Below the pieces are notes generated by a model. The model worked only from the letters and a program-made list of their open reading frames with translations. It had not been told where the DNA came from and did no database searches. A stretch of 55,781 nt of DNA from Bacilli bacterium (GTDB taxonomy: Bacteria; Bacillota_I; Bacilli_A; RF39; UBA660): contig JAFQQQ010000008.1 in assembly GCA_017410525.1 (NCBI GenBank), positions 1 to 55,781 of the forward strand, in the 5' to 3' direction. The translations under genes and the position numbers were made by a program. Numbering within the stretch: position 1 is the stretch's first letter; every line of letters begins with the position of its first letter. Below, one piece after another: positions 3,172 through 55,781 of the stretch.

Positions 3172-3177
3172 TAAAAA

Positions 3178-3209: not shown

Positions 3210-3227
3210 CCTATCCGTAAAGGGTTT

Positions 3228-3266: not shown

Positions 3267-3289
3267 ATGCAAGTTTCCTTGACATATTC

Positions 3290-3318
3290 ATTATAACAAA
3301 ATATATATATATTGTCAA
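3290..3318 (-). promoter_or_regulatory. Consensus promoter of the antisense RNA
   Basis: On the minus strand the -35 is TTGACA (3313-3318), the spacer is 17 bp and the -10 is TATAAT (3290-3295). It is the closest match to sigma-70/SigA consensus in the window. Confidence 0.8.
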
Positions 3319-3327
3319 TTTTATTTG

Positions 3328-3357
3328 TTGTAATATACATGTTCATTATGATATAAT
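3328..3357 (+). promoter_or_regulatory. Promoter of the deoxyribosyltransferase-like gene
   Basis: TTGTAA (3328-3333), an 18-bp spacer and TATAAT (3352-3357), followed by AGGAGGG and the ATG at 3376. It is divergent from, and nearly abuts, the antisense RNA promoter. Confidence 0.55.
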
Positions 3358-3375
3358 GACTTTAGGAGGGTTAAT

Positions 3376-4104: not shown

Positions 4105-4120
4105 ATAGTGTTTTTTATTT
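4093..4120. terminator. Bidirectional terminator between convergent genes
   Basis: AAAAAACACTA (4093-4103) and TAGTGTTTTTT (4106-4116) pair perfectly, giving U-tracts on both strands. It serves the + gene ending at 4104 and the - gene ending at 4115. Confidence 0.75.
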
Positions 4121-4600: not shown

Positions 4601-4609
4601 AAAACCACC

Positions 4610-35280: not shown

Positions 35281-35306
35281 ATGGAAAAATATTTCCATTT
35301 ATTTTT
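35275..35306. terminator. Bidirectional terminator between sortase and FtsW-like genes
   Basis: Arms 35275-35287 and 35292-35304 pair perfectly over 13 bp around AATA, with U-tracts in both directions. Confidence 0.85.
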
Positions 35307-36390
35307 CATATCTAGATATATTTAATATTACACCAATACTTATCATAGTTATAAGTAAACTAGAGCCACCATAACTAAGAAACGGTAAGGTTACTCCTGT
35401 TACTGGAATAAGTCCAACTACCACACTTAAATTAAGTATAGTTTGAAATATAAGTCCAAAAGTAATACCAAATGATAAATATTTACCAAACAAGTCATTA
35501 CACTTCATACTTATTTTTAATGAGTTATAAAATATTATTATAAATAAAATTGATATTATTAGTATACCCATAAATCCAAACTCTTCTGATATAATTGAAA
35601 ATATAAAATCTGTTTGAGGTTCTGGTAAATAAAAATGTTTTTGTATAGAATTCCCAAATCCAAGGCCAAATAACCCACCTGGACCTATACTATATAAACT
35701 TTGAATAATTTGAAATCCACTACCCAAAGGATCGCTCCATGGATCTAAAAACGATAATATTCTTTTTAAACGATAAGGGGCAATTAGTATTAAACCTACT
35801 ACACCTATTAAAGCAACCACACCAAATTTTAAAAATATTTTTATATTTAATCCAGCAACAAATAATAAACCTACTATAGTCATTACAAGTATAGTACCTG
35901 TACCAAAATCGGGTTGTAACATAATTACACCAAAGATACCTATAGTAATTAAAAGTATAGGTAGTACTCCCTTTTTAAAATTATTCATACAATTTGGATT
36001 ATTAGATAAATATTTACTTGTAAAAATAATAAGCCCTAGTTTAGCAAACTCACTAGGTTGTATTCCAAAAGAACCTATACCAAACCAACTTCTTGATCCA
36101 TTTCTCACTGTACCTATTCCAGGTATTAATACAAGTATCAATAAAATAACACACAATAATAATATCTTATTCGCATACTTAAAATATTTTTTATAATCTA
36201 TTTTGCTTACTATAATCATTAAAATTATACCTATAATAAAAAATAAACCTTGATTTTTTAAATATTTATAAGGATCATTATATTTATATTCTGCCCATAT
36301 ATATGATGAAGAATAAATCATAATAACCCCAAATAAAGATATTATAATAACACTTATTAGTAAAGTTAATTCCAACCTTTTATTCTTCAT
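35299..36390 (-). CDS. SEDS-family peptidoglycan glycosyltransferase, FtsW/SpoVE-like
   Basis: A 363-aa protein with about ten membrane helices. SEDS features: MIYSSSYIWAEYKYNDPYKYLKNQ near the start, GIGTVRNGSRSWFGIGSFGIQPSEFAKLG (with the catalytic-loop region), MLQPDFGTGTILV, PEPQTDFIFSIISEEFGFMG and GVTLPFLSYGGSSLL. SEDS proteins polymerise lipid II with a class B PBP partner. Length and motifs fit FtsW/SpoVE better than RodA. It is encoded just downstream of mraY copy 2. A SpoVD-like PBP lies 4 kb away, so a SpoVE role is possible, but a vegetative FtsW role is equally so: no other SEDS gene is in the window. Confidence 0.88.
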   Translation of the reverse strand: MKNKRLELTLLISVIIISLFGVIMIYSSSYIWAEYKYNDPYKYLKNQGLFFIIGIILMIIVSKIDYKKYFKYANKILLLCVILLILVLIPGIGTVRNGSRSWFGIGSFGIQPSEFAKLGLIIFTSKYLSNNPNCMNNFKKGVLPILLITIGIFGVIMLQPDFGTGTILVMTIVGLLFVAGLNIKIFLKFGVVALIGVVGLILIAPYRLKRILSFLDPWSDPLGSGFQIIQSLYSIGPGGLFGLGFGNSIQKHFYLPEPQTDFIFSIISEEFGFMGILIISILFIIIFYNSLKISMKCNDLFGKYLSFGITFGLIFQTILNLSVVVGLIPVTGVTLPFLSYGGSSLLITMISIGVILNISRYEK

Positions 36391-36422: not shown

Positions 36423-37415
36423 TTACAATATAACCCCAAATATAATAGATATCATACTAGCCAGTATTCCAACTAAACAAAATAATTTAACAATATCTCT
36501 TTCACTATAACCCTTCTTTTCAAATGAATGATGTATAGGTGTCATTAGAAATAATCTTTTTTTAGTAAATTTATAATATACTCTTTGAATAATACAAGTT
36601 AATGTCTCTATAACAAATACTATACCTATTAAAATTAGTAATATTTCATGTCTAGTTAAAATAGCAACACTTCCCATAACTGCACCTAAAGCAAGACTTC
36701 CTGTATCACCCATAAATACTTTTGCTGGATTTAAATTAAACAGTAAAAAACCTATTAAAGATCCACTTATAGAAAAACAAAATAAAGATACTTCTTCATA
36801 TCCTTCTAACCACCCTGTATTATAAGTGATTATTCCTAAAGTTAAAAAAGCTATTAAAGATAAACTTCCAGCAAGACCATCTAATCCATCTGTAATATTT
36901 ACTGCATTACTACTAGAAACAAGTACAAGTAATATAATCAATCCATATAAAAAACCAATATCAAGTTTTATTCCTAATGTATGAATCCAAAGTAATGGTT
37001 CATTACCACTCTTCATAAATAAATAGAAAAATATGATAGCAATTAATACTTGCAATATAAACTTAGAACTTTCACTTAATCCATTATTATTCTTTCTTTT
37101 TATGATTAAGAAATCATCTATAAATCCAATAATCGAATAAGATAAAAAAGTAAATATAACTATTAGGAGTGTTGTATTAAACTTTATCTTACCAAACAAA
37201 AACATAAATATCATAACTACTACTGTAGGTATTATAAATATTAAACCACCCATTGTGGGAGTTCCTTGTTTACTTTTATGTTTTTCTTCTAAGTATTCAC
37301 TTAACCTTTGTCCTGCTTTTAATCTTTTTAATAAAGGAATTAAAAAAGCACCTGTAATTATAGACAAAATTAAACTAATCATCATAACAAGTACTACTTT
37401 AGTTAATATAATCAT
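36423..37415 (-). CDS. MraY copy 2, with HHS in place of the HHH motif
   Basis: A 330-aa paralogue of the MraY at 585-1577 with the same length and the same main motifs: IDDFLIIKRKNNNGLSE, NAVNITDGLDGLAGS, FMGDTGSLALG. The cytoplasmic histidine loop reads PIHHSFEKKGYSERD, so the third His of the usual HHH is Ser. Those His residues line the uridine-binding side of the active site in known MraY structures. Copy 2 could be a less active or sporulation-specific lipid I synthase. The ATG at 37415 follows GTGAGGG. The FtsW/SpoVE gene follows 32 bases downstream, implying an operon that supplies lipid-linked precursor and polymerises it. Confidence 0.87.
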   Translation of the reverse strand: MIILTKVVLVMMISLILSIITGAFLIPLLKRLKAGQRLSEYLEEKHKSKQGTPTMGGLIFIIPTVVVMIFMFLFGKIKFNTTLLIVIFTFLSYSIIGFIDDFLIIKRKNNNGLSESSKFILQVLIAIIFFYLFMKSGNEPLLWIHTLGIKLDIGFLYGLIILLVLVSSSNAVNITDGLDGLAGSLSLIAFLTLGIITYNTGWLEGYEEVSLFCFSISGSLIGFLLFNLNPAKVFMGDTGSLALGAVMGSVAILTRHEILLILIGIVFVIETLTCIIQRVYYKFTKKRLFLMTPIHHSFEKKGYSERDIVKLFCLVGILASMISIIFGVIL

Positions 37416-37466
37416 AAAATCCCTCACTTAATTTTATTCCTACATTCATAAATTAGGACAAGAAAA

Positions 37467-38725: not shown

Positions 38726-39631
38726 TTATATCTTATTTATTGCTTCTTTGATTACATTTATTGAATTTTTTATCTTTTCTGTTTCCTCTTGATTAAATGG
38801 AACAAATATCTTTTCTTTAACTCCACTATTGTTTACTATAGCAGGTGTTGAAATATAAATATCGTGTTCTTTATCGTATGCTGAAACAGAAAGTATTACA
38901 TTTTCATCACCTAATATTGCATTTGTGATTCTAACTAAGCACATACCAATACCATAATATGTCGCACCTTTTCTATTTATTATTTCATATGCTGAATTTC
39001 TTACATCATTTTCAATTTTTATCTTTTCTTCTTCTGTTAAATAATAATTTATATGTTTTAGTGCTATATTAGCATTACTCCATGGAACAAACTCTGAATC
39101 ACCATGTTCACCCATTACATAAGCATGAATATCTTTTGGACTTACTCCTACTTTCTCACTTATTAAATATTTTAATCTAGCAGTATCTAAGGTAGTACCT
39201 GTACCAAGAACTTTATTATGAGGAAGTCCTGAATATTTATAAGTTAAATAAGTCATTACATCCAAGGGATTAGTTGCAACTAAAAATATACCATTAAATC
39301 CACTATTCATAACACTGTCTACTATATCTTTAAATATTTTACTATTTTTCTTTATCAAATCCATTCTAGTTTCACCAGGATTTTGATTTGCACCAGCAGC
39401 AATTACTACTATTTTAGCATCCTTACAATCACTATAATCACCTAATTTTATATCTATTTTAGAAGGACTATACGCAAGACAATGATTTAAATCCATTACT
39501 TCTCCTTCTACTTTTTTTGCATTTATATCTATAAGTACAAGTTCATTTACATAAGTTCTTTGATTCATCAAAGCATAACAATAACTCATACCCACATTAC
39601 CACAACCTATTATAACAACTTTATTATTCAT
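38726..39631 (-). CDS. ldh: L-lactate dehydrogenase
   Basis: A 301-aa NAD-dependent dehydrogenase reducing pyruvate to lactate, so a fermentative metabolism is suggested. There is a Rossmann motif GCGNVGMSYCYALMN and LIDINAKKVEGEVMDL. The substrate loop region is ANQNPGETRMDLIKKN (Gln before the catalytic-loop Arg favours lactate over malate). TNPLDVMTYL is followed by GTTLDTARLKYLI and the active-site GEHGDSEFVPWSNA. The ATG follows GGTGATAAT. It is a single gene between the surface protein and the papain-like protein. Confidence 0.93.
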   Translation of the reverse strand: MNNKVVIIGCGNVGMSYCYALMNQRTYVNELVLIDINAKKVEGEVMDLNHCLAYSPSKIDIKLGDYSDCKDAKIVVIAAGANQNPGETRMDLIKKNSKIFKDIVDSVMNSGFNGIFLVATNPLDVMTYLTYKYSGLPHNKVLGTGTTLDTARLKYLISEKVGVSPKDIHAYVMGEHGDSEFVPWSNANIALKHINYYLTEEEKIKIENDVRNSAYEIINRKGATYYGIGMCLVRITNAILGDENVILSVSAYDKEHDIYISTPAIVNNSGVKEKIFVPFNQEETEKIKNSINVIKEAINKI

Positions 39632-40273: not shown

Positions 40274-41137
40274 TTATTCAGTAAGAAGTAATCTTATAGT
40301 TTCACCTTCGTAAACTTTCTCATTAGCACTTGGAGATTGATAAGTTACAATTTCTCCTTTACCAGTATATTCTATTTTAAATTTCTTTAATAATTTTACT
40401 GCTTCTTTAACACTCATACCTACTACATTGGGTACTTCAGCATATTGTTTATCTGTATATAAATATTCTCTTTCTATTTCATCTGTTCTTTCTTCTATAT
40501 TTAAAATATCTATAGCGCTAAGTAGAAAGTTTTTAGCAATAGGAGCAGCAACTGTACCTCCGTATTGTGTTATGCCTTTAGCATTATCAACAGCTATATA
40601 TATAACTATTTCTGGTTTATCAGCAGGTAAAAATCCTATAAAACTCGTTATATAATTGCCACTTAAATAAACTCCATCTTTTACTTTTTGAGCAGTACCA
40701 GTTTTACCACCTACTCTATATCCACCAATATAAGCATTATGTCCAGTACCACGCGCTACTACACTTTCTAGAGCATATCTAACTTTTTCACTAGTATCAT
40801 CACTTATTACTTTTCTAACTACTGTAGGATTATTTTCTAGTATTACACTATTAGTTTCTGGTTCATTTAAACTTTTAACAATGTAAGGTTTATATAAAAT
40901 ACCACCATTTATAGCCGCACTAACAGCTGTTATTTGTTGTATAGGAGTTACACTCACTCCTTGACCAAAAGCAGTCGTAGCAAGTTCCAAATCACCTATT
41001 TTATCTATATTAAATAATATTCCATTAGATTCTCCATTTAAATCTACTCCTGTTTTGATGCCGAAACCAAATAAATCTATATAATTAAATAAAGTTTCTT
41101 TACCAAGTTTAAGACCTAAGTTTACAAATCCAGGGTT
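40274..41137 (-). pseudogene. SpoVD-like class B PBP, 3' part, interrupted by the integrative element
   Basis: From 41137 the frame reads NPGFVNLGLKLGKETL, GFGIKTGVDL, ELATTAFGQGVSVTPIQQ, the KTG motif (GGKTGTAQKV), and one C-terminal PASTA domain (VPNVVGMSVKEAVKLLKK), ending at 40274: 287 residues. The first Asn is the last residue of the conserved SxN motif (SSN in the FtsI at 13472). Upstream of it the frame runs KQPR and soon a stop, all element sequence. The SxxK serine, membrane anchor and dimerisation domain are missing. The single PASTA domain and the ATTAFGQGVSVTPIQQ block are typical of SpoVD, the PBP for spore cortex synthesis. The 5' part should lie beyond the right end of the element. 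Confidence 0.85.
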
Positions 41138-42902
41138 CCTTGGTTGCTTGCAAGAGATACTTTGACCTTAAAAAATTACCCTCAAAGTCAAGGTTAATGT
41201 TATATTTTCTATTTGTTTTTAAGGTCAAAGCACCGTTTGCTATTTTGATTTCTTCATCAGCATTCGATCCTTTGTTATTTGGATTATTATAATTATTTGT
41301 ATCTATTTCTATTATCTCGTTAGGATTATTAAAATTAAATAAAACTTCTAACTTAATATGTTTTCTATCGTTGTTAATCTTACTAACAAAAACTTTATCA
41401 ACAAATGTATTAAAGTATCTTGATAAGTTCTCTTTTATATTCATCTTTGGCGATATAAATTCTTTTATTTGATTTACTATATTTTCATAATATAATGGCG
41501 ACTCTCTATTAGATTCCATTTTTATTAATTTAGTTTTTAATGTTCTAATCTCATCATCAAGTTTTTGATTTTTAGTTTTAAAGTCATCATCACTTATCAT
41601 ATTTCTTAATGACATATCTAGTAACCTATCTTTGAATGCTTGTTGCTCTGTTATTCTTTCTTTTATTGATTCTAGATCGTTTGTAGAGTCTGACTCCTTA
41701 ATCAACAATTTATAATCATTTAAAATTGTTTCTAATATTTCATCACTATTATCAACAAACTTTGATATTAAGTTGGAAAATATATCGTTTAAATGCTTTT
41801 CATATAATATAGGTGTTAAGCAACCTTTTATTCCGTGTCTTAAATATTCATTACATTGCCATACTGGGTTATCTTTTCTTTTACAATTTGCAGTTCTAAT
41901 AAATGTAGTATTATGTTCAGTACAAAATATTTTTGATGTATATGTTCTATTTTCTAAATAGAATTCTTTATTTAAAACTGTCTTTGCCCAATGGCTATTC
42001 CTTTGTTTATATAATTTATTTGCTCTATCCCATATTTCTTCACTTACGATAGGTGGTATTTTTCCAGTTGTATCCTTATATATAATCCATTCAGATTCAG
42101 GTTTAGGTACTTTTTTGTGTGTTTTGTAATCTTCTACCTCTGTTAAATTAGCAGTGTAAAATCCTTTGTATCTAGGATTATTAAGCATTTTCTTTAATGT
42201 AGTATCTGCAAAAACTTTTCCTTTTCTTGTGTAATAACCTCTACTTGCTAATATCTCGCCTATTTTTGCAAATCCATATTCTCCTGTTATATATAAATCA
42301 AATAACATTCTTACTGCTTCTGCTTCTTTTTCAATAATGGTTAATACACCATCTTTTTTTGAGTATCCGTATATTCCACCACCACCAAGTTTTCCATCTT
42401 TTATACTTCTCTTAACTCCAAACTTAACTCTTTCTGATAATTTACGCACTTCGTCTTGAGCCATTGAAGCCATTAGAGTTAATCTAAATTCACTATCTGG
42501 ATATATTGTGTTAATATTATCTGATATAAATAAAACTACTACTCCGTATTTTAATAATTGTTGAGTATAACTAATGCTATCGATTGTATTACGAGCAAAT
42601 CTAGATACTTCTTTTGTTAGTATAATATCAAACTTACCTAATCTAGCATCTTCTATCATCTGTAAGAATTGTTCACGTCTATAAACTTGTGTTCCTGATA
42701 TACCTTCATCACTATAACTTCTAATATGTGTCCAAGTCTTTACAGATCCAATTAAATCACTAAAATAATTTATTTGGTTTTCCAATGAATTTAACTGGTC
42801 ATCTTTATCAGTCGATACTCTACCATAATCTACAACTCGCAAATTCATATCGTAAATGGTTTTACCAAGCATAAGTTCTTGTCGTGCTTTAATGATATCC
42901 AT
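41109..42902 (-). CDS. Large serine recombinase (element integrase)
   Basis: A 597-aa site-specific recombinase. The N-terminal resolvase domain (about 22-170) has the catalytic Ser in YGRVSTDKDDQ (Ser30), then SYSDEGISGTQVYRREQFLQM and TKEVSRFARNTIDSI. A recombinase domain follows (about 190-300, YTRKGKVFADTTLKKMLNNPRYKG). Then come a zinc ribbon (about 322-360: FCTEHNTT, CKRKDN, WQCNEYLRHGIKGC) and a coiled coil. This is the type that moves Tn4451/Tn5397-like elements and skin-type elements. The last 8-9 codons (EPWICKLRS) are read from host PBP sequence, because the ORF crosses the left attachment site. A SHOCT-like gene with TTG start lies just upstream. Confidence 0.95.
   Translation of the reverse strand: MDIIKARQELMLGKTIYDMNLRVVDYGRVSTDKDDQLNSLENQINYFSDLIGSVKTWTHIRSYSDEGISGTQVYRREQFLQMIEDARLGKFDIILTKEVSRFARNTIDSISYTQQLLKYGVVVLFISDNINTIYPDSEFRLTLMASMAQDEVRKLSERVKFGVKRSIKDGKLGGGGIYGYSKKDGVLTIIEKEAEAVRMLFDLYITGEYGFAKIGEILASRGYYTRKGKVFADTTLKKMLNNPRYKGFYTANLTEVEDYKTHKKVPKPESEWIIYKDTTGKIPPIVSEEIWDRANKLYKQRNSHWAKTVLNKEFYLENRTYTSKIFCTEHNTTFIRTANCKRKDNPVWQCNEYLRHGIKGCLTPILYEKHLNDIFSNLISKFVDNSDEILETILNDYKLLIKESDSTNDLESIKERITEQQAFKDRLLDMSLRNMISDDDFKTKNQKLDDEIRTLKTKLIKMESNRESPLYYENIVNQIKEFISPKMNIKENLSRYFNTFVDKVFVSKINNDRKHIKLEVLFNFNNPNEIIEIDTNNYNNPNNKGSNADEEIKIANGALTLKTNRKYNINLDFEGNFLRSKYLLQATKEPWICKLRS
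41135..41140. other. Left attachment junction (element/chromosome boundary)
   Basis: The SpoVD-like reading frame is continuous up to the Asn codon at 41135-41137 and loses homology at the next codon (41138-41140, Arg, where PBPs have Ser or another SxN residue). The crossover lies within a few bases of this point. The precise core cannot be fixed without the right end. Confidence 0.7.
41160..41230. repeat. 15-bp perfect inverted repeat at the left end of the element
   Basis: CTTTGACCTTAAAAA (41160-41174) and TTTTTAAGGTCAAAG (41216-41230) are exact inverse complements about 20 bp inside the junction, within the recombinase 3' coding region. Between them a related string, CAAAGTCAAGG (about 41183-41193), looks like a variant half-site. 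Large serine recombinases bind such motifs at attachment sites, so these may be recombinase zinc-domain sites. Confidence 0.6.
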
Positions 42903-42919
42903 ATTTTGCTCCTTTCTTC

Positions 42920-43114
42920 TTATTCGATATTTTCTAAAATAATTTTATCCATCTTCTTTACTAATAATTTTTGCATTTTACTAAAAACTTCATAAGATAT
43001 TATTTTTGCTTCTAGTAATTCTTTATTTAAACTCATTCTTAATTGAAGAATAAGGTACTCTTTGGGTAATTTCTTTGAATCGCTATAAATTTGATAATCT
43101 AGATCTGTGTCCAA
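42920..43114 (-). CDS. SHOCT-like small protein upstream of the recombinase
   Basis: A 64-aa protein with likely start TTG at 43114, which has AAGGAG 7 nt upstream. A longer ATG frame to 43243 has no ribosome site and crosses a hairpin. The C-terminal half (LLEAKIISYEVFSKMQKLLVKKM) has the pattern of the SHOCT domain, short helices often found at protein ends. Small SHOCT proteins are common beside large serine recombinases in Firmicutes and may help recombination, but this is inference. It is 17 bases upstream of the recombinase gene in one transcript. Confidence 0.55.
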   Translation of the reverse strand: MDTDLDYQIYSDSKKLPKEYLILQLRMSLNKELLEAKIISYEVFSKMQKLLVKKMDKIILENIE

Positions 43115-43160
43115 AGTATCACTCCTTCCATTTAAAAATATTAAGTTCGTAAATAAAAAA

Positions 43161-43210
43161 GAACTCAAAATTGAGTTCCCAAATATTTTAAATACTGAAA
43201 ACTCAATTTT
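43161..43210 (-). promoter_or_regulatory. Attenuator-like leader upstream of the SHOCT-recombinase genes
   Basis: In the minus-strand RNA three segments occur in order. Segment 1 is AAAATTGAGTT (43210-43200), segment 2 AACTCAATTTT (43177-43167) and segment 3 TTGAGTTC (43168-43161), followed by TTTTTTATTTA. Segment 2 can pair with segment 1 (11 bp) or with segment 3 (8 bp plus U-tract, a terminator). This gives mutually exclusive antiterminator and terminator folds. What switches them is not evident. Confidence 0.55.
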
Positions 43211-43325
43211 TTTTAAATGGTAAAGAGTACCCCTGTAAGCCATTATTTAAAAATTAAGTTTTCAAATAACAGTTTACAAATATCTTCATATTGAATTCTC
43301 CAAATCTATTTTTTTAATCTATTTT

Positions 43326-43868
43326 CTAATCTACTATTTCATAAGGAAAATCTGTTTCCTCATTCCCTCCAAATATTCTATTTTTATAATCTTTTATATT
43401 TAAAGCTACATTAAATGCATCATCTTCTGATAATACTGGAAAATGGTAAAGTCCCTCAAATAATTCCTCATTATCATATCTAATTAATAACTCGCCGATT
43501 ACATCTATTTTTTCTGAAAAATCTAGTTTTTCAAAAGTAGATAGCCATTGCTTTGAGTCATCATCTAAATTAATAGTTAAAAGGTCATCACTTAGTTTTT
43601 GATGTGATTCAGTAAAGTTGTTCATAATTCCAAGTAATAACATACCTATTGAATGAGCAAAGTGTTCTGATAGACCAACATTTGTAGGTTTAAATATTTC
43701 AAAATCTTCATCAGTAGTAGATGGGTTAATTTCATTTCTTTCATTAATTAATCCATTGTTCCACTCTTCAAATAAGTAAATACATACCTCAAATTTGGTT
43801 GTATTTTTAAATTGTTCAAATCTTTCAAATAAATCTTTAACTTTGTTTGATGTGTTTGACAAATACAT
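43326..43868 (-). CDS. Uncharacterised element protein, 180 aa
   Basis: No family recognised. It is an acidic, soluble, probably helical protein (MYLSNTSNKVKDLFERFEQF near the start; many Asp/Glu in the last third, ending PYEIVD). The start was placed at the ATG at 43868, where AAAGGA is well spaced, rather than at 43910. It overlaps nothing and follows the 75-aa gene by about 20 bases. It is the last gene before the attenuator-like leader. Confidence 0.55.
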   Translation of the reverse strand: MYLSNTSNKVKDLFERFEQFKNTTKFEVCIYLFEEWNNGLINERNEINPSTTDEDFEIFKPTNVGLSEHFAHSIGMLLLGIMNNFTESHQKLSDDLLTINLDDDSKQWLSTFEKLDFSEKIDVIGELLIRYDNEELFEGLYHFPVLSEDDAFNVALNIKDYKNRIFGGNEETDFPYEIVD

Positions 43869-43887
43869 AATCATCATTCCTTTCTTT

Positions 43888-44115
43888 CTATTTTGGCAAA
43901 CTTTCAACAAATTCTTCTAATATTTTGTTGTCAACTTCAGCAGAGATTATTTCCTTATTAAAAGGTATTCCTTTTCCTTTAAGATATTTAACCATTTCAT
44001 TAATAGCAAATGTGTAATTAAATCTTTCAGGAGTTTCTTCTAAATCACTTTTCGCTACTGTCGCAAGTCCATCAACAATATATTCAAAGAAATCTTTGTC
44101 AAGCCCTGACTTCAT
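43888..44115 (-). CDS. Uncharacterised element protein, 75 aa
   Basis: A small acidic soluble protein (MKSGLDKDFFEYIVDGLATVA ... KILEEFVESLPK), not recognised. AGGAGG precedes two successive ATG codons; the second (44115) has the better spacing. It is the first gene after an extended -10 promoter at 44220-44225 and probably forms a two-gene unit with the 180-aa gene. Confidence 0.55.
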   Translation of the reverse strand: MKSGLDKDFFEYIVDGLATVAKSDLEETPERFNYTFAINEMVKYLKGKGIPFNKEIISAEVDNKILEEFVESLPK

Positions 44116-44176
44116 CATACCTCCTATTGTTTTTTAGCCATTTTAAGAGCTTTTTATTTTTTTGCAGACAAGTGCC

Positions 44177-44225
44177 TGACCGAACTAGTAAAGTCCCAAT
44201 ATCGAGATTTTAGTGGTCAATTATA
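44177..44225 (-). promoter_or_regulatory. Extended -10 promoter with overlapping inverted repeat
   Basis: On the minus strand ATGCTATAAT gives an extended -10 (44220-44225) reading toward 44115. Adjacent is an inverted repeat: TGACC-GA-ACTA (44177-44187) against TAGTGGTCA (44211-44219), 9 pairs with a 2-base bulge. This 60-base block is noticeably richer in G+C than its surroundings. It could be an operator, a structured leader or part of oriT. Confidence 0.5.
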
Positions 44226-44303
44226 GCATTTTTCTTGCACTTTATTAATCACTTAAAAAAATGGTTTTTGCAATAGTTTTTTTTAAATTTTTTCAATTTC
44301 TTT

Positions 44304-47300
44304 TTATTTGTCATTTTCAAGTTCATTTTCTTCATTTGTCATAGTATTTGAATCTTGTTTATCAAGATCCAATTCACTATCAATTCTTGCTTGTTCTTTT
44401 TGCAATTCTCTAATTCTATCTAAACTAGGGAAAGGTTTATCTAATTCTTCTTTAACACTTCCTAGTTCTTTTTCTATATAAGCAATTCTTTCTTCAGTAT
44501 CACTTATTCTTTTATCAAAACTTTTTAAAACATTTTCCATCTTATATATATTACCTATTTCTTGAGTATCACTAATTTCAACTTTATAACGTCCTTTGTT
44601 CTTCAAAAAAAGTTGTGGTTTTCCCCACAACTCATCTTTAATTCCAACTATATCAAATCCACTAATATTACCTATAATTGTTTCTTCACCAACTTTACAA
44701 ATTGAAAACATTTTGTAAAGCATTTCACTCGCTTCACTTCTAGACGTTAGGTTTACACCATTAAGTGTGATTCTAAAATTATCAGCACTTAAATCTTGAA
44801 TATCTTTCATATCCTCATTTAATAACGAAAGATAATTATTTGAATCTTTTAATTGATTAGGTAAACCTATTTGATATTTTTTTAATAAATCTTCTCTTGT
44901 TTTATCATACCTCTGCTTTGATAAATATAATTGTTTTAATTCGTTTTCTACTTTAAACTTTTCAAGTATTAAAGGATTACCACTCGCTAACGCTTTTACT
45001 TCTGCATAAGTAAGTGTATCTCTATCTAAATCTTCAGCACTTCTAACTCCATTTCCATTATTCCCCATTATTTGATTTATAAAGTTAGATTTAGTTTCTA
45101 TTAATTGATAAGAGTAAGCATCAAAACTACCTTCAGTAATATATCTATATATTTCTACTTCTTCGTTTTGATTTCCCTGTCTTAATATTCTTCCTTCCCT
45201 TTGTTCAATGTCAGATGGTCGCCATGGACAGTCTAAATGATGCAACGCTACTAATTTATCTTGAACATTCATTCCTGCTCCCATCTTTGCAGTACTACCC
45301 ATTAATATTCTAACTTTACCAGTTCTCATATCATTGAATAATTTAGTTTTTTGAGCATTACTTTTTGCATTATGTATATACTCAATTTCTTCTGCAGGTA
45401 TTCCCCTAGCAATTAATTTGTTTTTAATATCATCATAAGCATTAAATCCGCCATCATCTCTAGGAGTTGATAAATCACAAAATACTAATTGAGTTAATTT
45501 GTTTTCTTTATTCTTTAACCAAATACCATATATATTATCTACTGCTAAATTAATTTTTGAATTTGATATATCTTCATAAGTAGGATCTATCATTCTCATA
45601 TCAAGTGCTGCTTTTCTACCATCATTGGTTACTTTTAACATATTATCTTCAGTACTATGTACTTGACGATTTTTAATAAGTTCACTTCTATATGCTAAAT
45701 CTTGCACATAACTATCTAAATCTTCAGATTTAGGTGCAACTATTGTATTGTACTTTCCATCTTTTAATTTAGGAACAGGTAGATTTAACATTTTAGATGT
45801 TTTAATATCCGCTACTTCTTTAAATAAAGACATTAACTCTGGTATATTATAGAATTTTGAAAATCTTGCCTTTGTTCTAAAGCCACTACCATCAGGCGAT
45901 ATTTCAAAACTATTAACTATCTCACCAAAAGTACTCGCCCATTCATCAAAGTTAGATAATCCCAATTCTCTTAATCTATCTATTTGCAAATATTTCTGCA
46001 TTGCATATAATTCACCCATTGAATTAGATATTGGAGTACCAGTTGCAAAAACTGCTCCTTTACCATTATTGTTTTCTAATATATAACTAATCTTCATAAA
46101 AAGATCAGTTGCCTTTTGCGATTCAGTATTATTAATACCTGCTACATTTCTTATCTTTGAAAACATTGGTAAGTTTTTAAACATATGTGCTTCATCTACA
46201 AATAAAAAATCAACTCCAAGTTCTTCAAAGTTGACTGCATCATCTTTTTTAGTATCATCTAATAATCTTTTTAATTTTGCCTCTAGCACTTTCTTTGCTT
46301 GTTCTATTTTCTTAACACTTACACCATCTGCTTCTATATCATATTGTGCTTGTGTCAATTCATCTATTTGATTATTAATATGTTGTGTTTCATATTCCTT
46401 ACTAATAGGAATTAATCCAAAACTAGAATGAGCAATTACAACTGCGTCCCATTCACCTGTTGCAATTCGTGCCATTAATTTCTTTCTTCTTGTTTTTTCA
46501 AAATCTTTTTGTGAAGCAACTAATACATTTGCCATTGGATATAATTTTAAAATATCATTAGCCCACTGATTAATTAAATGATTAGGAACAACAAACATTG
46601 GCTTACTAACTATACCTAATCTTTTTAGTTCCATTGCACTTGCGATACACTCAAAAGTTTTACCAGCACCTACTGCGTGAGCTAATAGTGCATTACCACC
46701 ATATAAAACTCTTGCGACTGCATCTTTTTGATGCGGTCTTAATTCTATACTAGGATTCATACCATCAAATTTCAAATTGCTACCATCATACTCTCTTTGT
46801 CGTATACAATTAAATCTCTCATTGTATATTCTAACTAATCTTTCACGTCTACCTTCATCTTTCCAAATCCACTCTTTAAACTCTTGTTTAATAAGTTCTT
46901 GTTTTTCTCTTGCATTTGCAGTTTCAACAACATTAACAATTCTTCTATCATCATCTAACTTATCGTAGACAGTTACACTTTGTAAGTTTAATGAGTTCTT
47001 TATAATATTAATGGCGTCCATTCTATCAGTACCCCAAGTACTAGTATTTTTAGTAGTAGCACTATGTAAACCAGATGATTGAAATAACCATTGATTTGCA
47101 GTTGGTACATATTTGATTTTTAAATTACCCTCATAACGCCAAGATATATCTACAAGTTCACATACAAACTGGTGGTATATATCTTCAGGTATCCAAGTAC
47201 TACCAAGTTTTACATTTATTTCATCATATTGTAATGGTATAGGTTGCACTTGTTTTAATGCTTCAATATTTTTATCATATATACCATTTTGATTTTTAAT

Positions 47301-50300
47301 TTCGGCTATATTTAATTTTTCTTTTACATTACCACTTAAATATTCATTTGCTAAAACATAACCATTATTAAATTCATTTGTTTTTTGTGGATCTTGATAA
47401 ATTAGATTTCCAAGTTCTTCTATAATCTCTTCTTCAGTTTTATTATATACTGAACTCATATAACCGAAATCTACACAACCTCTAGCATTCATTGATAAAG
47501 CAAGTGCTTCTTCTGCAGTTTCTGCTTTCTCATTTTCTTTATTTCTTCTTATTGTTCTTTTATAAAAAACATCACCTTTTTCATAAACTGGTACTTCTTC
47601 ATCATCTTTACTAACCTTATTTTCTATTGATGAAATTAAATAATAATCTGGATCATCTTCAAATGCTCTTTGATTAGTAGTAGAACTAATAGCACCCATT
47701 TTCTTATAAAACTCATCATAAACTTTATGCAAGTTATCTTGTGTTATTTTTAATTCATCATCAGTACCATCATTTAACTGAACTCCAAAAACATTTTTTA
47801 AAGCAACTTTTACTTTACACATACCTTTTATTCGTTCAGCTGTCATACCACTTTGTAAAGTATAAGGAACAAGATTAGAATTAACTCGCTTATAAATAAT
47901 ATCTTGATTATCTATATTAACAATTACAAAAGCATTATTTTTAATATCATCATCACAATCTAATACTGGATAATCAAAACTTGCTTCTTCTATATCATAA
48001 CTTCCTTTTTCATATATCTTACTTGGCAAGTTATTTACTGCTTGTTCTAATAAAACATTTAACTTTTCATCTAAAGGATTAAGTGTTGACTCATTACCAT
48101 AAGGTCCACTCTTAATTTCAAACTTACCAAGCATCATATTTGGATTATCTATAAAATAATTATTTAGTTGAATATCATCTTCATAATAATCAGTATATAA
48201 CCATCTTTCATCAGATACATCTTTCTTTAATTCTTCTCTTTTCTTTAAAAAGATAATATCAGTTGTAGTACTAGTATTAGCATTACTTTTAAATGTAGTG
48301 TTTGGCAATCTTATTGCACCAATTAATTCAGATCGTTGTGCTATATATTCTCTAACAGTTTTATCTTTTTTATCCATAGTACCAGACGAAGTTATAAATG
48401 CAATAATTCCCCCTGGTCTTACTTTATCTAAAGTCTTTTGAAAAAAGTAATCGTGTACTAAAAAATGTGTTTTATATCTTTTATCTAATATTTGATAATT
48501 GCTAAAAGGTACATTACCTATTGCAACATCATACATATTATCTAGCAACTCAACATTTTCATATCCTTTTACATCTATCTTTGCATTTTGATAAAGTTGT
48601 TTTGCAATTCTACCTGTTATACTATCTAATTCTATTCCTCGTACATTTTTCATTTCAATAGAATTAGGTTTTCTACCAAAAAAGTTTCCTATACCACAGG
48701 ATGGCTCTAGAACTTTTCCATTTTCAAATCCAAATCTAGATAAAGAATTATAAATACTATCTATTACTTCATTTGGAGTATAAAAAGAAGTCAATACAGA
48801 TTCATTGGCTTCTTTATACTCTTTTTCATTTAACAATAATTTTAATTCTTCATATTCTTTACTCCAATTAGATTTAGTTTTATCAAATGCTTCACTTATT
48901 CCTCCCCAACCTACATATTTTGCTAAAACCTCTTGTTCATCTTTTGTAGCAAGTCTATCTTCAGACTCTATTTTCTTTAATAATTTTATAGCATTAACAT
49001 TATCTTCAAATCTTGTCTTTGCTCCAAAAAACTCATCTTCTTTATTAGGAATAATATAATCTATTTTTTCAACAGGTTTTATCTCTATTCTTTCATAACT
49101 TTCTTCGTGTTCTTCTTCATCTTCATAATCGTCATAATCATCATCTTCAAAACTATAATCATCAATTATATTTTCTTCTTCATAATCTATATAATTATCT
49201 TCTTGTTTTGTTCCACTATTTTTATCATTATTATTAGAATTAACTTTTATATTATCCAATGAATATTGTTTCTTTTCAAAGTTATGCCAATAAATATGTA
49301 TCATATCAGGAGTAAATGAAATTGAAAAATCTTTATCTTCATTTAATCTACTTAATAACGGATCATTTTCAATTCCACTATATAAAAGTTTTTCATCAGT
49401 CTTATCACTATTAAAATATGTAAAACTATTTTCTCTATCTGCTAAATCACTTATAATTGTACTTTTTAAATTAATGGTTAAAGTTTTATTTGGATTAGTT
49501 ATATGTGTCCATTTACTTAAATCTACTTTATTTAATACAAATGTATCTTTATATTTTGTATCAAAAGAATTAAATATTTCTAAAATCTTATTAGCCAATT
49601 CTTGTTCTCTTGGCTCAAATAAAGTTAATTGACTAACGCCAACACTTTTTTCTTCTACTGGATCATCTTCATATAATTCTTTACTATCTTCTTTCGTAAA
49701 CATTTCTTGCTCTACATCATAAAGATTTAACTTTTCATCTTCAGTTAAATATTCATTCATAAAACATAATGTTTGCACTCTATCTAATACTTCGTTCCAT
49801 TTTAAAGGTACATAAACATTACCAATTTCTACTTCAAAGTTTTTACCATAAGAACTCCAACCATATCTAATATCATCTATTACACTACCTGAATGACCTG
49901 CAAGACCATAAATATTTTTTATTCTTCTAATTTTTTCTTGATTAGAAAAATTGCCATTAACAATTAAATATATTCTTTCTTTTCCTCTATACTCACTAGG
50001 TCCTTCTTTAAGGACTATATTAATATATTTTTCTTTTGTTTCTTCAGATATTTCATTAGGTTGTATTTCATTTATTCTTTCAAGTTCTTTTTTGTATTCT
50101 TCACTTCTATAATCCATACTATAATAAGTCGTGTATTTTTCTTTTGAATTATCTAACACTAACTTATCTTCTAATTTATAATTAGGATCTTTTAACCAAA
50201 TCTTTTTAACTTTATTTTTATTATTAGTTAAATCTTCTATCATCATATTATATGGACATTTGTCGTAAGTGATATTAGTACCATTATAAAACTCTACATA

Positions 50301-51257
50301 AAATCTTAACTTTTCTTCCCTATCAAATTCAGTAAATAAATCTTCATCAATTACTTTATCATCTTTATCATCTATATCTTCTTTATCATTAAAAGGATCT
50401 TTTACTCTTTCTAATTCTTTGAAAGCATATTTACTATTATTATAAAAATCTCTTACTAATTCATTATTTATCTCATTTTCTTCAGCTATAGATATAAGTT
50501 TATTATCTATATCATTAAAATTAAAATCTTCTTGTGTATATTCATTTATTACTAAACTATCAATTTGTTTTTTCGTATTAGATAAAACATTAATATCATT
50601 TCTTACTTTCTTATACATATATAAAGATTCTTTATTTACAAGTTGAAGACATTTTAATTTATCTTCTAAATCAAAACTATTCAAATCTTTTAATGTTCCA
50701 TTATATGTTTCCATAATATTGAAACCAAACTTTGACATTGTAATATTTGCAACTGTGTCAGTTATAAATCTTTTTTCATCTAGCGTTAATGATGTATCAT
50801 ACTCTTGATTAATATGTTTACCAACTTGATTTAATATTGAAGTATATAAACTAGTTGATATATTCTTTTTACTATTATCAGTTTTTAATGGATAAAAATA
50901 ATAGTTTAAAAGTTCGTTATCTATCTTATGGTCATATTTCCATAAATAAAAAGACTTCCCGTGTGTTTGGGAAATCTCAAAAATATGTACTTTACTACCA
51001 TCTTTAATTATTGGTATACCTCTGCTTTGTGGTTTTATTCTTCTTTGTACTTTTGAACTATTCCACTCATCAAAAGTTGCAAATACACTACCTTTAGGAT
51101 TATAAGCATAAATATTAAGTAAATTATCAATGCTATATTGAACTACATTCTTTGACCAAAAGTTTAAAAAATTAAACCACTCTTGTTCACTCTCACTAAT
51201 ATAATTCAATGTATTATCTCTAATAGTGTTATACTCTTCTAAAAACTTTTTGTGCAT
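44304..51257 (-). CDS. Giant ArdC-like/DNA methylase/SNF2-type helicase protein, 2317 aa
   Basis: N-terminal ~120 residues resemble the ArdC-type single-strand DNA-binding/anti-restriction fold ([14 protein letters not shown], then [22 protein letters not shown]). Linker and acidic regions follow ([20 protein letters not shown] near 700). An N6-adenine methylase-like domain has [11 protein letters not shown] near 852 (SAM motif I) and [12 protein letters not shown] near 916, a variant of the NPPY motif. A superfamily 2 helicase has [12 protein letters not shown] near 1529, [10 protein letters not shown] near 1689 and [19 protein letters not shown] near 2022. A coiled coil ends the protein. 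Such giants are standard in Firmicute conjugative elements; roles in anti-restriction or element maintenance are assumed, not proven. The stop of the coupling-protein gene coincides with its start. Confidence 0.9.
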
Positions 51258-53257
51258 TATTTATTTACCTCCTGTTCTTTATCATTTTTCAAATAAATTT
51301 CTATCTTGCTACAACGATTTTTTCTATTAACTTTTTCTTGAGAAGATACTGCTAAATAACCAAAGTTATTTTGTTTTGATATCTGATCCAAACCACCTAT
51401 ATCCGATAAAGATAAAGGTGATGCTAAAAAGATATGTGCTTGATTAATTATATTTTCTTTTATATATTCAACATCATTATCTACGTTAGGAAATAGTTTT
51501 AATATTTCTTTTACATATATTTCTAATTTCTTTCTATTATTCTTTTCTAACTCTACACTTTGTACTGCTTTAGGGCTACCACTACTAGGAGGTGGAGTTT
51601 TTTTCTTTGCACTAATTTGTTCCACTGTATAATAAGTATCAACTAGTCTTTCAAGTGGTCTTATTTCTCTTTCTATTCTTCCACTTTTATAACAACTAAA
51701 CTTATCATAAGTAACCGTGTCCCTAATTATTGGATATCCTTTTGTAGGAAATATTATTGTTTTAAAATGTAATTGTTTTATTTCATCAGGTGTCATTAAA
51801 TTACGACTAATTAAAGAAGTATTTTGACTACCATTATTATTTGTAAAACTCATTGAATAATTTACTGATGAAGTTTGAACTCCTCTATTTCCGAGGCGTT
51901 TACTAATTTCTTCAGCAGTGGATTGTGTATTCGTTTTTAAAAATGCTAGTCCAGTATTATCTTGAATAATTTGACTTACTTCTCTACCATATAAATTATC
52001 TAATTGAGCAAAAGATTGTAAATAGAAATTAAATTGCATACCCCTACTTCTTGCTACACTTACCATTGTAGTAATATCTGCAAGTGGTGGTGTATTGGCA
52101 AATTCATCTAACATAAAAACTAGATCGTAAGGCAATCTTCTATTAGGTTGCTCATTACATAACAAAACAAGTTTCTTATATATTAAAGAAACCACTATTG
52201 AAATTAATGAATAATATATTTTTGATTCATCAGGTATACAACAATATAAGACTGTCGGACTTTTACCTAAAACATCAAAATCAAAATCTGAATTTGAAGT
52301 TACATTTTCAACATTAACATTATCATATAATGTCATTCTTTCATTAAATGTTGAAGTTATAGAACGATATGTTGTATCTGATATATTTAGTAAAGGTAAT
52401 AATTTATCTTTACTTTTCATATCATAAGTTTTTTGCTCCATATAATTTTTTAATAACTTATTATTAGTTTCTGTCATTGAACTATTTTGAAATTTCTTAA
52501 TTGAAGTTAAAGTTATCTTTTTTCTTTCTATCTTACCCTCTACATAATCTTCTAAAAATAAAAATATCAAACCATATAATAAATCACACGAACTATTATT
52601 CCAAAACTTTTCTTTGGCAGTTTCATCATTCATTATCATAGTTGATATATCATTTACAAATTCATTACATTGTGCAAAATGTGTAATAGATTTATTTTTC
52701 AAATCTATTTTCTTTTTCTTACTTTTTACTTTTTCACTTTCTCTTTTATATTTATCATATAATTCATATTCCTTTATAGCAGGTTCTAATAAATTGATAT
52801 GATTAGAATATTCTGGATTTCTAAAATCTAAAGTTAATACATTATAACCATTATCTTTAAATAATTTGCTTGTCGTATCAAATATCTCGCCTTTTGGATC
52901 TGTTATAAAAACACTCTTTTTAACTTGAGCTGTTGCTATAAAAGAACAATTAGGTATTACTGATGTTACTGATTTACCACTACCAGTACTTCCTAAATAA
53001 ATCCAATGAGGTGTTTTCATATCAAACCATACTTTCGTATTGTCTTTATTAAAATAAACAGGAAATCCATAATTTTTTATATTACTTATTTTTTCTTCTT
53101 TGAAGTTCTTTTTTATCTCACTAAATTTCGCCCATCTTGCACTTCCATGTTCTTTATTATCCTTAACTTTTTGTTTTGATATAAATGGCTCAACAAAATA
53201 TAAAAAACAAATCATCAATACTACGATAATTAAAATAATAACATATTCTGTTGGCAT
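51257..53257 (-). CDS. VirD4/TraG-type coupling ATPase
   Basis: A 666-aa type IV coupling protein, the ATPase that hands the relaxase-DNA complex to the conjugation channel. One N-terminal membrane helix (5-22), Walker [16 protein letters not shown] near 90, Walker [13 protein letters not shown] near 382, and the family motif [24 protein letters not shown] ... [13 protein letters not shown]. The C-terminal ~150 residues are charged and variable. Families with a single N-terminal helix and this layout belong to TraG/TcpA-like ICE proteins. It is immediately followed by the giant helicase gene and preceded by small element genes, all one transcription unit. Confidence 0.93.
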
Positions 53258-53258
53258 T

Positions 53259-53642
53259 TTATTTTTCTTCTACTTCGGTTGAAAAATATTTTTTATCATA
53301 TATATTTTCAAATCTATCAACACTATCATTATCATAATATCTTAATTCATCTAAATCTACTTTTACTAACTCATAACTTCCACTACTATGTCTTTTATAC
53401 ATTAATGTATCACTAATAATTTTTTTATCTTTTAAATAATCAATTAGTCCATCAGATATTTTATTATTAATATAAATATAATTCATTGCTATATTTGCCA
53501 TATCTTTGAAGTTGATAGTTATTTCATCATAAAGTTTACCTTCAGCATCTACCAAACCTAAATATAACGATTTATCATTTTCATAATTACCAATATCAAG
53601 ATAAATCTCTTTATTATTAATTTTTGCTATCGGTCTTTTCAT
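53259..53642 (-). CDS. Uncharacterised element protein, 127 aa (DUF4313-like pattern)
   Basis: A soluble, beta-rich protein: AKINNKEIYLDIGNYENDKSLYLGLVDAEG then EITINFKDMANIAMNYIYI. This resembles small DUF4313-type proteins found in Firmicute conjugative elements, but the match is from memory and weak. The ATG at 53642 follows GTGAGG; the longer start at 53663 has no ribosome site. It overlaps the 89-aa gene upstream by 26 bases and ends 1 base before the coupling-protein gene, indicating translational coupling. Confidence 0.5.
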   Translation of the reverse strand: MKRPIAKINNKEIYLDIGNYENDKSLYLGLVDAEGKLYDEITINFKDMANIAMNYIYINNKISDGLIDYLKDKKIISDTLMYKRHSSGSYELVKVDLDELRYYDNDSVDRFENIYDKKYFSTEVEEK

Positions 53643-53886
53643 TTTTTTCAACCTCACTTTCAACTAATGATTCTAAAAACTTATTTTCTTGTTTTATTGT
53701 TTCTATCATTGTTTTATATAAACTCTTTTCTACAATATTTTTTGATCCTTTAATTTTAGTATCATATTTTCCAATTTCTTTTAAATTGTATTTTATTCTA
53801 TTTTTTATTTCATTAACTTGATTATTATATTTAACAATCATAGTTTGCATATTCATAAACTCATTATTGAATTTTGAAAAATCCAT
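53617..53886 (-). CDS. Coiled-coil element protein, 89 aa
   Basis: An almost wholly helical, charged protein (MDFSKFNNEFMNMQTMIVKYN ... VEKSLYKTMIETIKQENKFL), probably a coiled coil. The start at 53886 has AAAGG 7 nt upstream. It overlaps both neighbours by short stretches. Function unknown. Confidence 0.55.
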   Translation of the reverse strand: MDFSKFNNEFMNMQTMIVKYNNQVNEIKNRIKYNLKEIGKYDTKIKGSKNIVEKSLYKTMIETIKQENKFLESLVESEVEKNEKTDSKN

Positions 53887-53893
53887 ATCATCA

Positions 53894-54646
53894 CTACCTT
53901 TCTCTTTCTTCATCTCTCATAATTTGTCTTAATTCAAAATCATCAAATTGATTTATCTTTAATTCGTTATGAATTAAATTAAAACCTACTGGTGGTATTT
54001 CTTGCTCTTTATTATATTGTTCATAACAATCTAACATTTTATTATAGAAATAGTCCACTCTATCCTTTTTAAAATCATCATAATTAACAATAAAATATTC
54101 AATATTAGTATCTTCTATATCTTCTACTAACCTTAATCTTTCATCCTCTTGTTTCCAAGCAAAATTAGTAATTACTTTATCATCAATTTTTTTCATTAAG
54201 AAATAATCCGCATAACCATCAAAACCTATTGGATAAGCATAAACAATATTATCTTTTATATCTTCTAAATTATAATTGCTGCTTAAATATGTAGGAGTTG
54301 ATTTATTTAATATTGGAGTGTCTTGTTCCAAGACCATACTAATACTATCATTTTCTATTGCATCAAACATATCAGTATAATGTATCTCACCTAATTCATC
54401 TAATGTAATATCATCATCTAAATAATGAGTACTAATAAAATCTGCAATTCTAGGTACTGAAAAATGCCATTGACTATCTTCTGTATAATAATCAATTATT
54501 ATTTCTTTTAAATCAGTAACAACTTTATCGTCCAATGTAATATTTCTATTTCTCGCACAATCATATATGGATTGATATGCTAAATAATCATTTAAATATA
54601 AATTATCTTCTCTTGATAATTTTTTATATAATTCTAGACTTTTCAT
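53894..54646 (-). CDS. Uncharacterised element protein, 250 aa
   Basis: An acidic soluble protein, no family recognised. A predicted helical N-terminal third (ELYKKLSREDNLYLNDYLAY) is followed by a more mixed middle with IVYAYPIGFDGYADYFLMKKI. The C-terminus is rich in Asp/Glu. The ATG is preceded by GAGGAGGAAAGATTAGAAA, which is itself coding for the end of the 41-aa membrane protein, so the two genes overlap by 23 bases and are coupled. Confidence 0.55.
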   Translation of the reverse strand: MKSLELYKKLSREDNLYLNDYLAYQSIYDCARNRNITLDDKVVTDLKEIIIDYYTEDSQWHFSVPRIADFISTHYLDDDITLDELGEIHYTDMFDAIENDSISMVLEQDTPILNKSTPTYLSSNYNLEDIKDNIVYAYPIGFDGYADYFLMKKIDDKVITNFAWKQEDERLRLVEDIEDTNIEYFIVNYDDFKKDRVDYFYNKMLDCYEQYNKEQEIPPVGFNLIHNELKINQFDDFELRQIMRDEERER

Positions 54647-54749
54647 TTTCTAATCTTTCCTCCTCTCTAGAACATCTACTTGATATTTTTAAAATTGGAT
54701 ATAAAAAAAATAATAGCAATGCTATTATCAATAAAATTATCATAATCAT
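54624..54749 (-). CDS. Small single-pass membrane protein of the element, 41 aa
   Basis: The ATG at 54749 follows GGTGAAAAA. The 41-residue product begins MIMIILLIIALLLFFLYPIL, a single membrane helix, and then has a highly charged tail (SSRCSREEERLENEK). It overlaps the next gene by 23 bases and carries that gene's ribosome site, which argues that it is translated. It also explains the otherwise empty stretch between two element genes. No family recognised. Such peptides often assist the conjugation channel, but that is a guess. Confidence 0.5.
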   Translation of the reverse strand: MIMIILLIIALLLFFLYPILKISSRCSREEERLENEKSRII

Positions 54750-54761
54750 TTTTTCACCAAA

Positions 54762-54790
54762 AAAGGAATTATCTTTTAAAAACAATTCCT
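54762..54790 (-). terminator. Terminator after the 203-aa element gene
   Basis: AGGAATT (54764-54770) and AATTCCT (54784-54790) pair and are followed by TTTTTT on the minus strand. It overlaps the end of the 54789-55400 gene. Confidence 0.6.
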
Positions 54791-55400
54791 ATCTTTCCAT
54801 TTCTTCTTTCTTTTCTACTGACTTTAATTTATCTTTAACAAACTCTATAATCTCTTGAGCTTCTTTGTATAAATAAAAATAATCTTTATAGTGTTTACCA
54901 AATGCTTTGCAATTATAAAAGTCATCATAATCCATCTCGGATATTTCTTCATAATAATTTTTATCAGCATCATAAGTTCCATTTTTCTTATAATACGAAG
55001 TTAACTGATCATATATAGTTTCAGTGAAGTAATCATTAAAACGATCACAATGACGCATAAAAGTTGTTAACATATATTTTGGATCTTCTTTACACTTTTG
55101 AGCTAAATCATCTAAAGGATTTTCTTTATCTAATCCTTTCCAAAGAAATGCACCACCTCTATCTTCTACTTGCATTCTAGCAACCATTTTACCCATATCA
55201 AGAGTTCCAATAATTTCACTTGCATTCTCAATCTCTTTTTCGTAAAATTCATCGGCTTTTCTTGTCCATTTAAAATATTTTTTAATTATATCTTCTTCTT
55301 CGAAATATGCTTTATAAAGATTTTCATCTATTTCAATTTTTAATTTTTCTCTTAAAATATCCAATGCTTCTTTATAAAATTCTTTTGGAAATTGACTCAT
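54789..55400 (-). CDS. Uncharacterised element protein, 203 aa
   Basis: A soluble, strongly charged, mostly helical protein (MSQFPKEFYKEALDILREKL; YFKWTRKADEFYEKEIENASEII). It has an aromatic-rich middle, DDFYNCKAFGKHYKDYFYLY. No family recognised. The ATG at 55400 follows AGGAGGAATATT; the longer frame to 55418 has no ribosome site. It ends in a terminator and begins 20 bases past another hairpin, so it is probably its own transcription unit. Confidence 0.55.
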   Translation of the reverse strand: MSQFPKEFYKEALDILREKLKIEIDENLYKAYFEEEDIIKKYFKWTRKADEFYEKEIENASEIIGTLDMGKMVARMQVEDRGGAFLWKGLDKENPLDDLAQKCKEDPKYMLTTFMRHCDRFNDYFTETIYDQLTSYYKKNGTYDADKNYYEEISEMDYDDFYNCKAFGKHYKDYFYLYKEAQEIIEFVKDKLKSVEKKEEMER

Positions 55401-55419
55401 AATATTCCTCCTTTTCAAA

Positions 55420-55441
55420 AATAAAACGGTGTATTAAATAC
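55420..55441 (-). terminator. Probable terminator after the 77-aa element gene
   Basis: On the minus strand CGGTTGTATT and AATACACCG fold with one bulged T and are followed by TTTTATTTTTG. Confidence 0.5.
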
Positions 55442-55456
55442 AACCGCTTCGTATAT

Positions 55457-55690
55457 TTACCTTATATTAATAATTCTATGAGCATTCGCTCTAATACTTT
55501 CTCCGAATATATAGTGATTATCTAATAAATAATTTAAATCTGGATAATGGTTCTTTTGATTAGAATATTCTATCGCACAAATAGTACAACCTGTTTCAGT
55601 TTTTTCTATTTTATAGTCTAAACTATATAATTTAAATTCAACACTACCATTTTGATTATAAAGATTTTCTAATGTACTTATATTATCCAT
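55457..55690 (-). CDS. Uncharacterised element protein, 77 aa
   Basis: A small soluble beta-rich protein (SVEFKLYSLDYKIEKTETGC, CAIEYSNQKNHYPDLNYLLD) with two Cys. It is reminiscent of small proteins found in Firmicute mobile elements, but no family is recognised. GGTGGTTTT precedes the ATG. It ends at a weak hairpin. Confidence 0.5.
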   Translation of the reverse strand: MDNISTLENLYNQNGSVEFKLYSLDYKIEKTETGCTICAIEYSNQKNHYPDLNYLLDNHYIFGESIRANAHRIINIR

Positions 55691-55739
55691 AAAACCACCA
55701 CTAATAATAGTATATCATAAAAACAAACAAATGTTATAT

Positions 55740-55781
55740 TTATCTTTCTAATTCTTGTTTTTTTCTTTCGTTAAATATATC
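55740..55781 (-). CDS. C-terminal end of an element gene entering from the right edge
   Basis: Thirteen codons (DIFNERKKQELER) and a TAA stop are visible. The charged tail gives no clue to function. Confidence 0.4.
   Translation of the reverse strand, partial: DIFNERKKQELER

Follow-up and report, generated by a model that had tools for sequence, protein, structure and literature searches.

Is a sporulation gene that is interrupted exactly in an active-site codon simply lost, or is it put together again when the cell needs it? We considered this question for the window, i.e. the whole 55,781-bp contig C7 of the Bacilli assembly G000 (1.04 Mb in 10 contigs, 95% complete), in which an earlier reading of the letters alone (hereafter, the sequence-only reading) had recognized a SpoVD-like penicillin-binding protein (PBP) gene split at its SxN motif by a serine-recombinase element with conjugation-type genes. 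The sequence data confirm that the interrupted gene is spoVD and that a 53-kb mobile element lies exactly in the SxN active-site codon. The features of the window are collected in Table 1.

On the minus strand, the stop at 40274 and the Asn codon of SxN at 41135-41137 delimit an open PBP frame (NPGFVNLG...), with foreign sequence beyond, and our translation agrees with the sequence-only reading on this point. That reading expected the 5′ part of the gene immediately past the element's right end. A 5′ part with SxxK and the start of SxN does exist, on contig C10 and not just past the window end, where C7 terminates within the element and not in host DNA. Precisely, a Pfam search of G000 found PBP_dimer and transpeptidase positions 4-105 at C10:105831-106721, which is the exact part lacking on C7, and the spoVD 5′ half at C10:105672-106716 has STFK as its SxxK motif and ends in ...VVENSCN before element sequence begins. 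The 3′ end of C10 is the reverse complement of the C7 end over an exact 118-bp overlap, which joins the contigs inside the element and gives an element of 53,002 bp with the 5-bp core AACCC at both ends.

Precise excision of the joined element returns spoVD in frame, with 635 codons and free of stops, and the rejoined protein reaches 708.6 bits on the NCBIfam model TIGR02214 (stage V sporulation protein D; cut-off 688), so that both the restored frame and the identity as SpoVD hold as proposed. An intact second SpoVD had been named as a finding that would speak against the split gene; none is present among the class-B PBPs of the G000 assembly scored on TIGR02214, since the two others reach just 323 and 153 bits. 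The attP site has a dyad symmetry of 17/25 centred on A|A, and therefore we placed the crossover in the AA of the SxN Asn codon. Judging from the genomes compared below, insertion at this codon is not due to chance because dozens of other species use the same codon, which also bears out the expectation of a target conserved in many hosts.

To judge by its gene content, the 53-kb element is most likely an integrative and conjugative element (ICE). Beside the recombinase and the coupling protein (PF02534, 3.1e-61), which agree with the conjugation-type element described before, it encodes a VirB4-like P-loop ATPase with TraG and DUF87 matches and a relaxase-like protein that narrowly misses the Pfam cut-off (24.1 vs 24.6); its other genes include an M23 peptidase, a sortase, a SpaA-domain protein and a large helicase. 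The recombinase, the last codons and stop of which fall in host spoVD sequence (41109-42902), has the Resolvase and Recombinase domains and the attP dyad around a central dinucleotide that are typical of the large serine recombinases. CcrC and CcrB are its nearest NCBIfam models and XisF is also among the models that it resembles; it is not an equivalog of CcrABC or XisF, with 110 bits vs the cut-off of 900 for CcrC and 96 vs 375 bits for XisF. In the circular form the recombinase frame would be open across attP and fused with a left-end ORF containing DUF5655 (L016:1725-2372), for a total of 806 aa; we rejected this longer protein as a general feature, as other elements have a different extension or none. 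A further region inside the element on C10 (L016:4196-14731) holds a series of paralogues that encode secreted or membrane proteins with an MDQNNNFN... start, small lipoprotein genes lying between them.

The comparison with relatives of G000, nearly all of them metagenome assemblies (labelled in almost every case as uncultured Bacilli, Bacillota, Tenericutes or Erysipelotrichaceae), included 80 loci with an essentially complete spoVD, the nearest of which was 96% identical. In the genus of G000, spoVD is split in 7 of 16 species and at three positions, i.e. the Asn codon of SxN (site A; G000, G001 and G002), the Lys codon of SxxK (site B; G004 and G015) and the first Gln codon of TPIQQ, hence TPI|QQ (site C; G009, G011 and G015), with two elements in the spoVD of G015. 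We then considered 386 species genomes of the family: about 118 looked abnormal, and about 100 (26-27%) were split after follow-up and exclusion of contig breaks, many of these calls coming from alignment limits and about two dozen being read base by base. Six genomes first counted as splits (G012, G016, G086, G101, G134 and G141) turned out to be contig breaks. In the family, the splits are confined to A, B and C. Double insertions are frequent, and all three positions are filled in G251 and G070. The SxN site of the sequence-only reading thus stands, as part of a phenomenon broader than was claimed, which is family-wide and involves three spoVD positions and other genes as well. The pbpB-like paralogue is a single long open frame wherever listed, and some family members have no spoVD altogether. 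The elements elsewhere in the family are 3.5-15 kb long, vs the 53-kb ICE of G000. By sequence appearance, the cargo of the small elements includes an AbiE-type toxin-antitoxin-like pair (G011, L142:678-2122) and a Fic-domain-like protein (G015, L145:5247-5996). Two near-equal spoVD 3′ pieces were seen in G180 (C23:22029-22892 and C24:5919-6782), possibly from two element variants in the sample.

Junctions were placed by motif anchors. At every junction readable on both sides, rejoining restores the motif in frame; for G167 the automatic offset was wrong, and the attL and attR sequences aligned by eye fit the same crossover. The bases common to both junctions narrow to AA at site A (G002) and to CA at site C (G035). 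Where elements are assembled, the recombinase lies directly at the right junction for A and C, and at either junction for B.

The recombinase tree (49 sequences) has three clades that match the sites exactly (17 sequences for A, 13 for B and 15 for C, with support of 99-100), each site specificity corresponding to one change on the tree. Recombinases are 0.96-0.99 identical where the identity of the spoVD 3′ pieces is 0.51-0.66 (for G065 and G282, 98.9% and 55%, respectively), and the two identities are uncorrelated (Spearman -0.05 for A and 0.03 for C). Since recombinase identity does not follow spoVD identity, the sequences indicate that the elements move between genera and re-enter the same codon; we infer their horizontal spread from this comparison of identities only. 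The small ORF directly upstream of the recombinase in the window, a candidate directionality factor, has counterparts before the recombinases of related elements too, and similar hairpins are found upstream of the site-A and site-C recombinase operons. In a class-wide scan of 395 genomes, the recombinase profile had close matches in 21 genomes from the family of G000 and in one from another family, and a scan of IMG/VR returned recombinase relatives and no spoVD pieces.

The same recombinase group also enters other genes, several of which were read on the 3′ side only. It splits spoIVA near residue 400 in G095, G198 and G205 (L270-L275), where spoVD is split too, and D,D-carboxypeptidase genes either at SxN (G014, L147/L396; G176, L399; G336, L318; G351, L310) or at SxxK (G040, L305; G043, L307; G148, L425). 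In G104, G094, G234, G165 and G124 (L415-L419) it interrupts the gene of an ABC-transporter substrate-binding protein.

The structure of these insertions, their sites, the restored frames, the specificity of recombinases for sites, the horizontal movement and the recurrence in roughly one in four of the family genomes sampled can be shown from the assemblies as they stand. As an explanation, we propose that three large serine recombinase lineages carried by mobile elements use as attB three conserved codons of the spoVD transpeptidase domain. Insertion splits spoVD with no loss of bases, and precise excision rejoins it in frame. The cost to growing cells would be small because SpoVD is presumed to be needed in sporulation only, and the elements would be cut out in sporulating cells, probably in the mother cell, spoVD being rebuilt when needed. 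We assign to this excision at sporulation a probability of about 0.6. A wider form of it, in which spoVD would be routinely in pieces in a large family of gut Bacilli and one to three independent recombinases would reassemble it whenever a cell sporulates (spoIVA and carboxypeptidase genes being treated likewise), is put forward tentatively and at somewhat less than even odds.

The main competitor of excision at sporulation is a tolerated knock-out, in which spoVD would be a handy conserved target not needed for growth in the gut, the insertions would abolish or impair the spore cortex, and the split would be reversed only through element loss or selection. We consider it unlikely. spoIVA, the sole sporulation marker tested family-wide, is present in G000 and in 32/32 split genomes tested, in comparison with 24/26 genomes with an intact spoVD and 8/22 without spoVD (split vs absent, p = 1e-7, an optimistic value as the genomes are related). 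Among 129 fragment loci there is one frameshift (G252, L244, codons about 89-103) and no internal stop away from the junction. Two or three elements per gene are common, which is also not what a simple knock-out would suggest. Moreover, some assembly branches coincide with the crossover: the left contig of G283 ends exactly at ...TGTAA, which is the crossover, and shares a 77-bp overlap with a contig intact across site A; in G106 a contig with an intact site A overlaps by 87 bp a contig starting exactly at the Asn codon; and contigs beginning exactly at the crossover occur in G308, G336 and G176. An assembler is expected to give such branches if a sample contains both empty and filled sites, or different elements. 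Several points weigh against excision at sporulation and, in part, for the knock-out. The dN/dS of the split halves is about 0.10, equal to that of intact genes; as many insertions are recent transfers, this value and the intact halves are not a proof of function after insertion and may reflect selection before it. Empty and filled sites that coexist in a metagenome can be a mixture of strains. The transporter gene is not a sporulation gene, and its use by the same recombinases weakens any argument from target choice alone; the absence of spoVD in some family members also fits with a dispensable gene. Finally, the recombinase operon of the window's own element has no sigma-E-like box upstream, and among the site-C operons such boxes are not above chance.

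The promoter regions bear also on a stochastic switch, in which excision and re-insertion at a low rate during growth, free of sporulation control, would leave a minority of cells with an intact spoVD to sporulate (bet-hedging). Upstream of spoVD a CATATAnTT box occurs in 79/80 loci with a relaxed anchor, 22-28 nt before most starts, and the stricter pattern CATA[CT]AnT in 42/80 loci vs 4.3 expected; we take this box to resemble the -10 element of sigma-E and sigma-K of B. subtilis. Four recombinase operons of type B and three of type A have CATACACTT or CATACAATT immediately ahead of the small ORF's ribosome site. In a weight-matrix scan of all the recombinase operons for the sigma-E-like box, no whole clade was above shuffled sequences and two subclades only stood out. 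Clade-wide counts of the boxes are only modestly above shuffled (4/17 vs 1.7 for A, 4/13 vs 1.6 for B), and the matches are related by descent. The boxes of these two subclades suggest a regulated use, and excision by serine recombinases normally requires a directionality factor; hence we regard an uncontrolled switch as quite improbable, even if an intact site A stands alongside a crossover branch in G106 and G283 and the yin element is excised at all growth stages (PMC10747680). An artefact of assembly or binning could be suspected, given that all the genomes are metagenome-assembled and the window case is a join of two contigs. It is already contradicted, and hardly credible, as whole insertions lie within single contigs of many independent assemblies (G034, G035, G050, G059, G064, G111, G137 and others), with identical crossover points and the recombinase at the junction whenever the end is assembled. 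On balance, the retention of spoIVA, the branches at the crossover and the sporulation-type boxes on some recombinase operons appear to favour excision over knock-out, a choice that the sequence-only reading had left undecided.

Elements of this kind are known to intervene in sporulation genes, i.e. skin (sigK), SPbeta (spsM), vfbin (spoVFB), gin (gerE) and yin (yabG) (PMC5595907, PMC10747680). As in those cases, a serine-recombinase element sits in a sporulation gene, the ends have a short core in common, and the reading frame returns on precise excision; gin, which is not a phage, crosses over at AA (PMC5595907) as the window's element does. The latter lies inside a sporulation coding sequence beside spoVE, has its own recombinase near one end, and is found in a host that keeps spoIVA. 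It differs from the known elements in the target (spoVD, in addition to spoIVA and carboxypeptidase genes), in the three recombinase clades, each with its own codon in a single gene, in the presence of up to three elements per gene, in its conjugation-type genes, and in its hosts, which are uncultured gut Bacilli with reduced genomes. In the heterocyst elements of cyanobacteria (nifD, fdxN and hupL), genes of a differentiated cell are freed by excision during differentiation (PMC4874684). The gene is again needed only in the differentiated cell and the fdxN recombinase is the XisF mentioned above; the lineage and the genes are different and the window recombinase is far below the XisF cut-off. 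With the serine-recombinase ICEs of the TnpX/TndX type and the SCC cassettes (CcrABC), the element shares a large serine recombinase at one end and conjugation genes, whereas its recombinase, well under the Ccr cut-off, is specialized on conserved codons within a gene for sporulation. In the open-access literature searched, which is not the whole literature, nothing matched spoVD as a target of intervening elements. As far as checked, the novelty lies in the target and its multiple insertions, in the three recombinase lineages dedicated to it and in the scale, the kind of element being known.

The rearrangements of sporulation genes described earlier were isolated cases in few cultured spore formers, in contrast with about a quarter of the sampled species in one uncultured gut family here. 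If excision accompanies sporulation, this would be a widespread natural instance of bacterial genes assembled in a programmed way; if spoVD is routinely rebuilt, sporulation in these bacteria would normally include programmed DNA elimination, and the elements would have linked their own excision or transfer to spore formation. In the order RF39, a survey reported spoVD to be reduced or absent (PMC10868615). A split spoVD that fails full-length models may explain this result in part, if the family of G000 lies in RF39, and the same point bears on the prediction of sporulation from genomes. Site-specific recombinases with known natural targets may also be useful tools.

Table 1. Features of the window around the split spoVD gene, in order of position
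Feature	Position	Strand	Evidence or remark
pbpB-like class-B PBP of the main dcw cluster, intact (control)	13472..15847	-	open frame; TIGR02214 323 bits only
spoVE (SEDS partner), host flank	35299..36390	-	TIGR02615 451.4 bits, cut-off 448.8
second mraY, host flank	36423..37427	-	TIGR00445 306.9 bits
L-lactate dehydrogenase, host flank	38726..39631	-	TIGR01771 386.9 bits
spoVD 3′ piece (SxN Asn codon through stop)	40274..41137	-	translation; PF00905 positions 103-298
large serine recombinase, 597 aa	41109..42902	-	PF00239 7.5e-28, PF07508 6.1e-21, weak Zn-ribbon match; site-A clade
attR core AACCC; crossover dinucleotide AA (Asn codon, bases 1-2)	41133..41137	-	attP dyad; same AA there in G002
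right part of the element, 14.6 kb	41138..55781		remainder = C10:106716-145191
small ORF directly upstream of the recombinase	42920..43243	-	candidate directionality factor from position; 3′ part conserved among site-A elements
hairpin and T run near the small ORF/recombinase operon (upstream)	43150..43178	-	sequence
SNF2/helicase protein, 2317 aa	44304..51257	-	PF00176 3.4e-12, PF00271 2.8e-8
type IV coupling protein	51257..53257	-	PF02534 3.1e-61
small element ORFs with no assigned function	53259..55418	-	ORF list

In the host flank, the second mraY is located between the spoVD 3′ piece and the downstream SEDS gene spoVE. Contig C7 carries in all two mraY and two MurE-type ligase genes (window 585-6046 and 36423-37427), and a CATATATT box was observed upstream of the gene at window 1583-2914.

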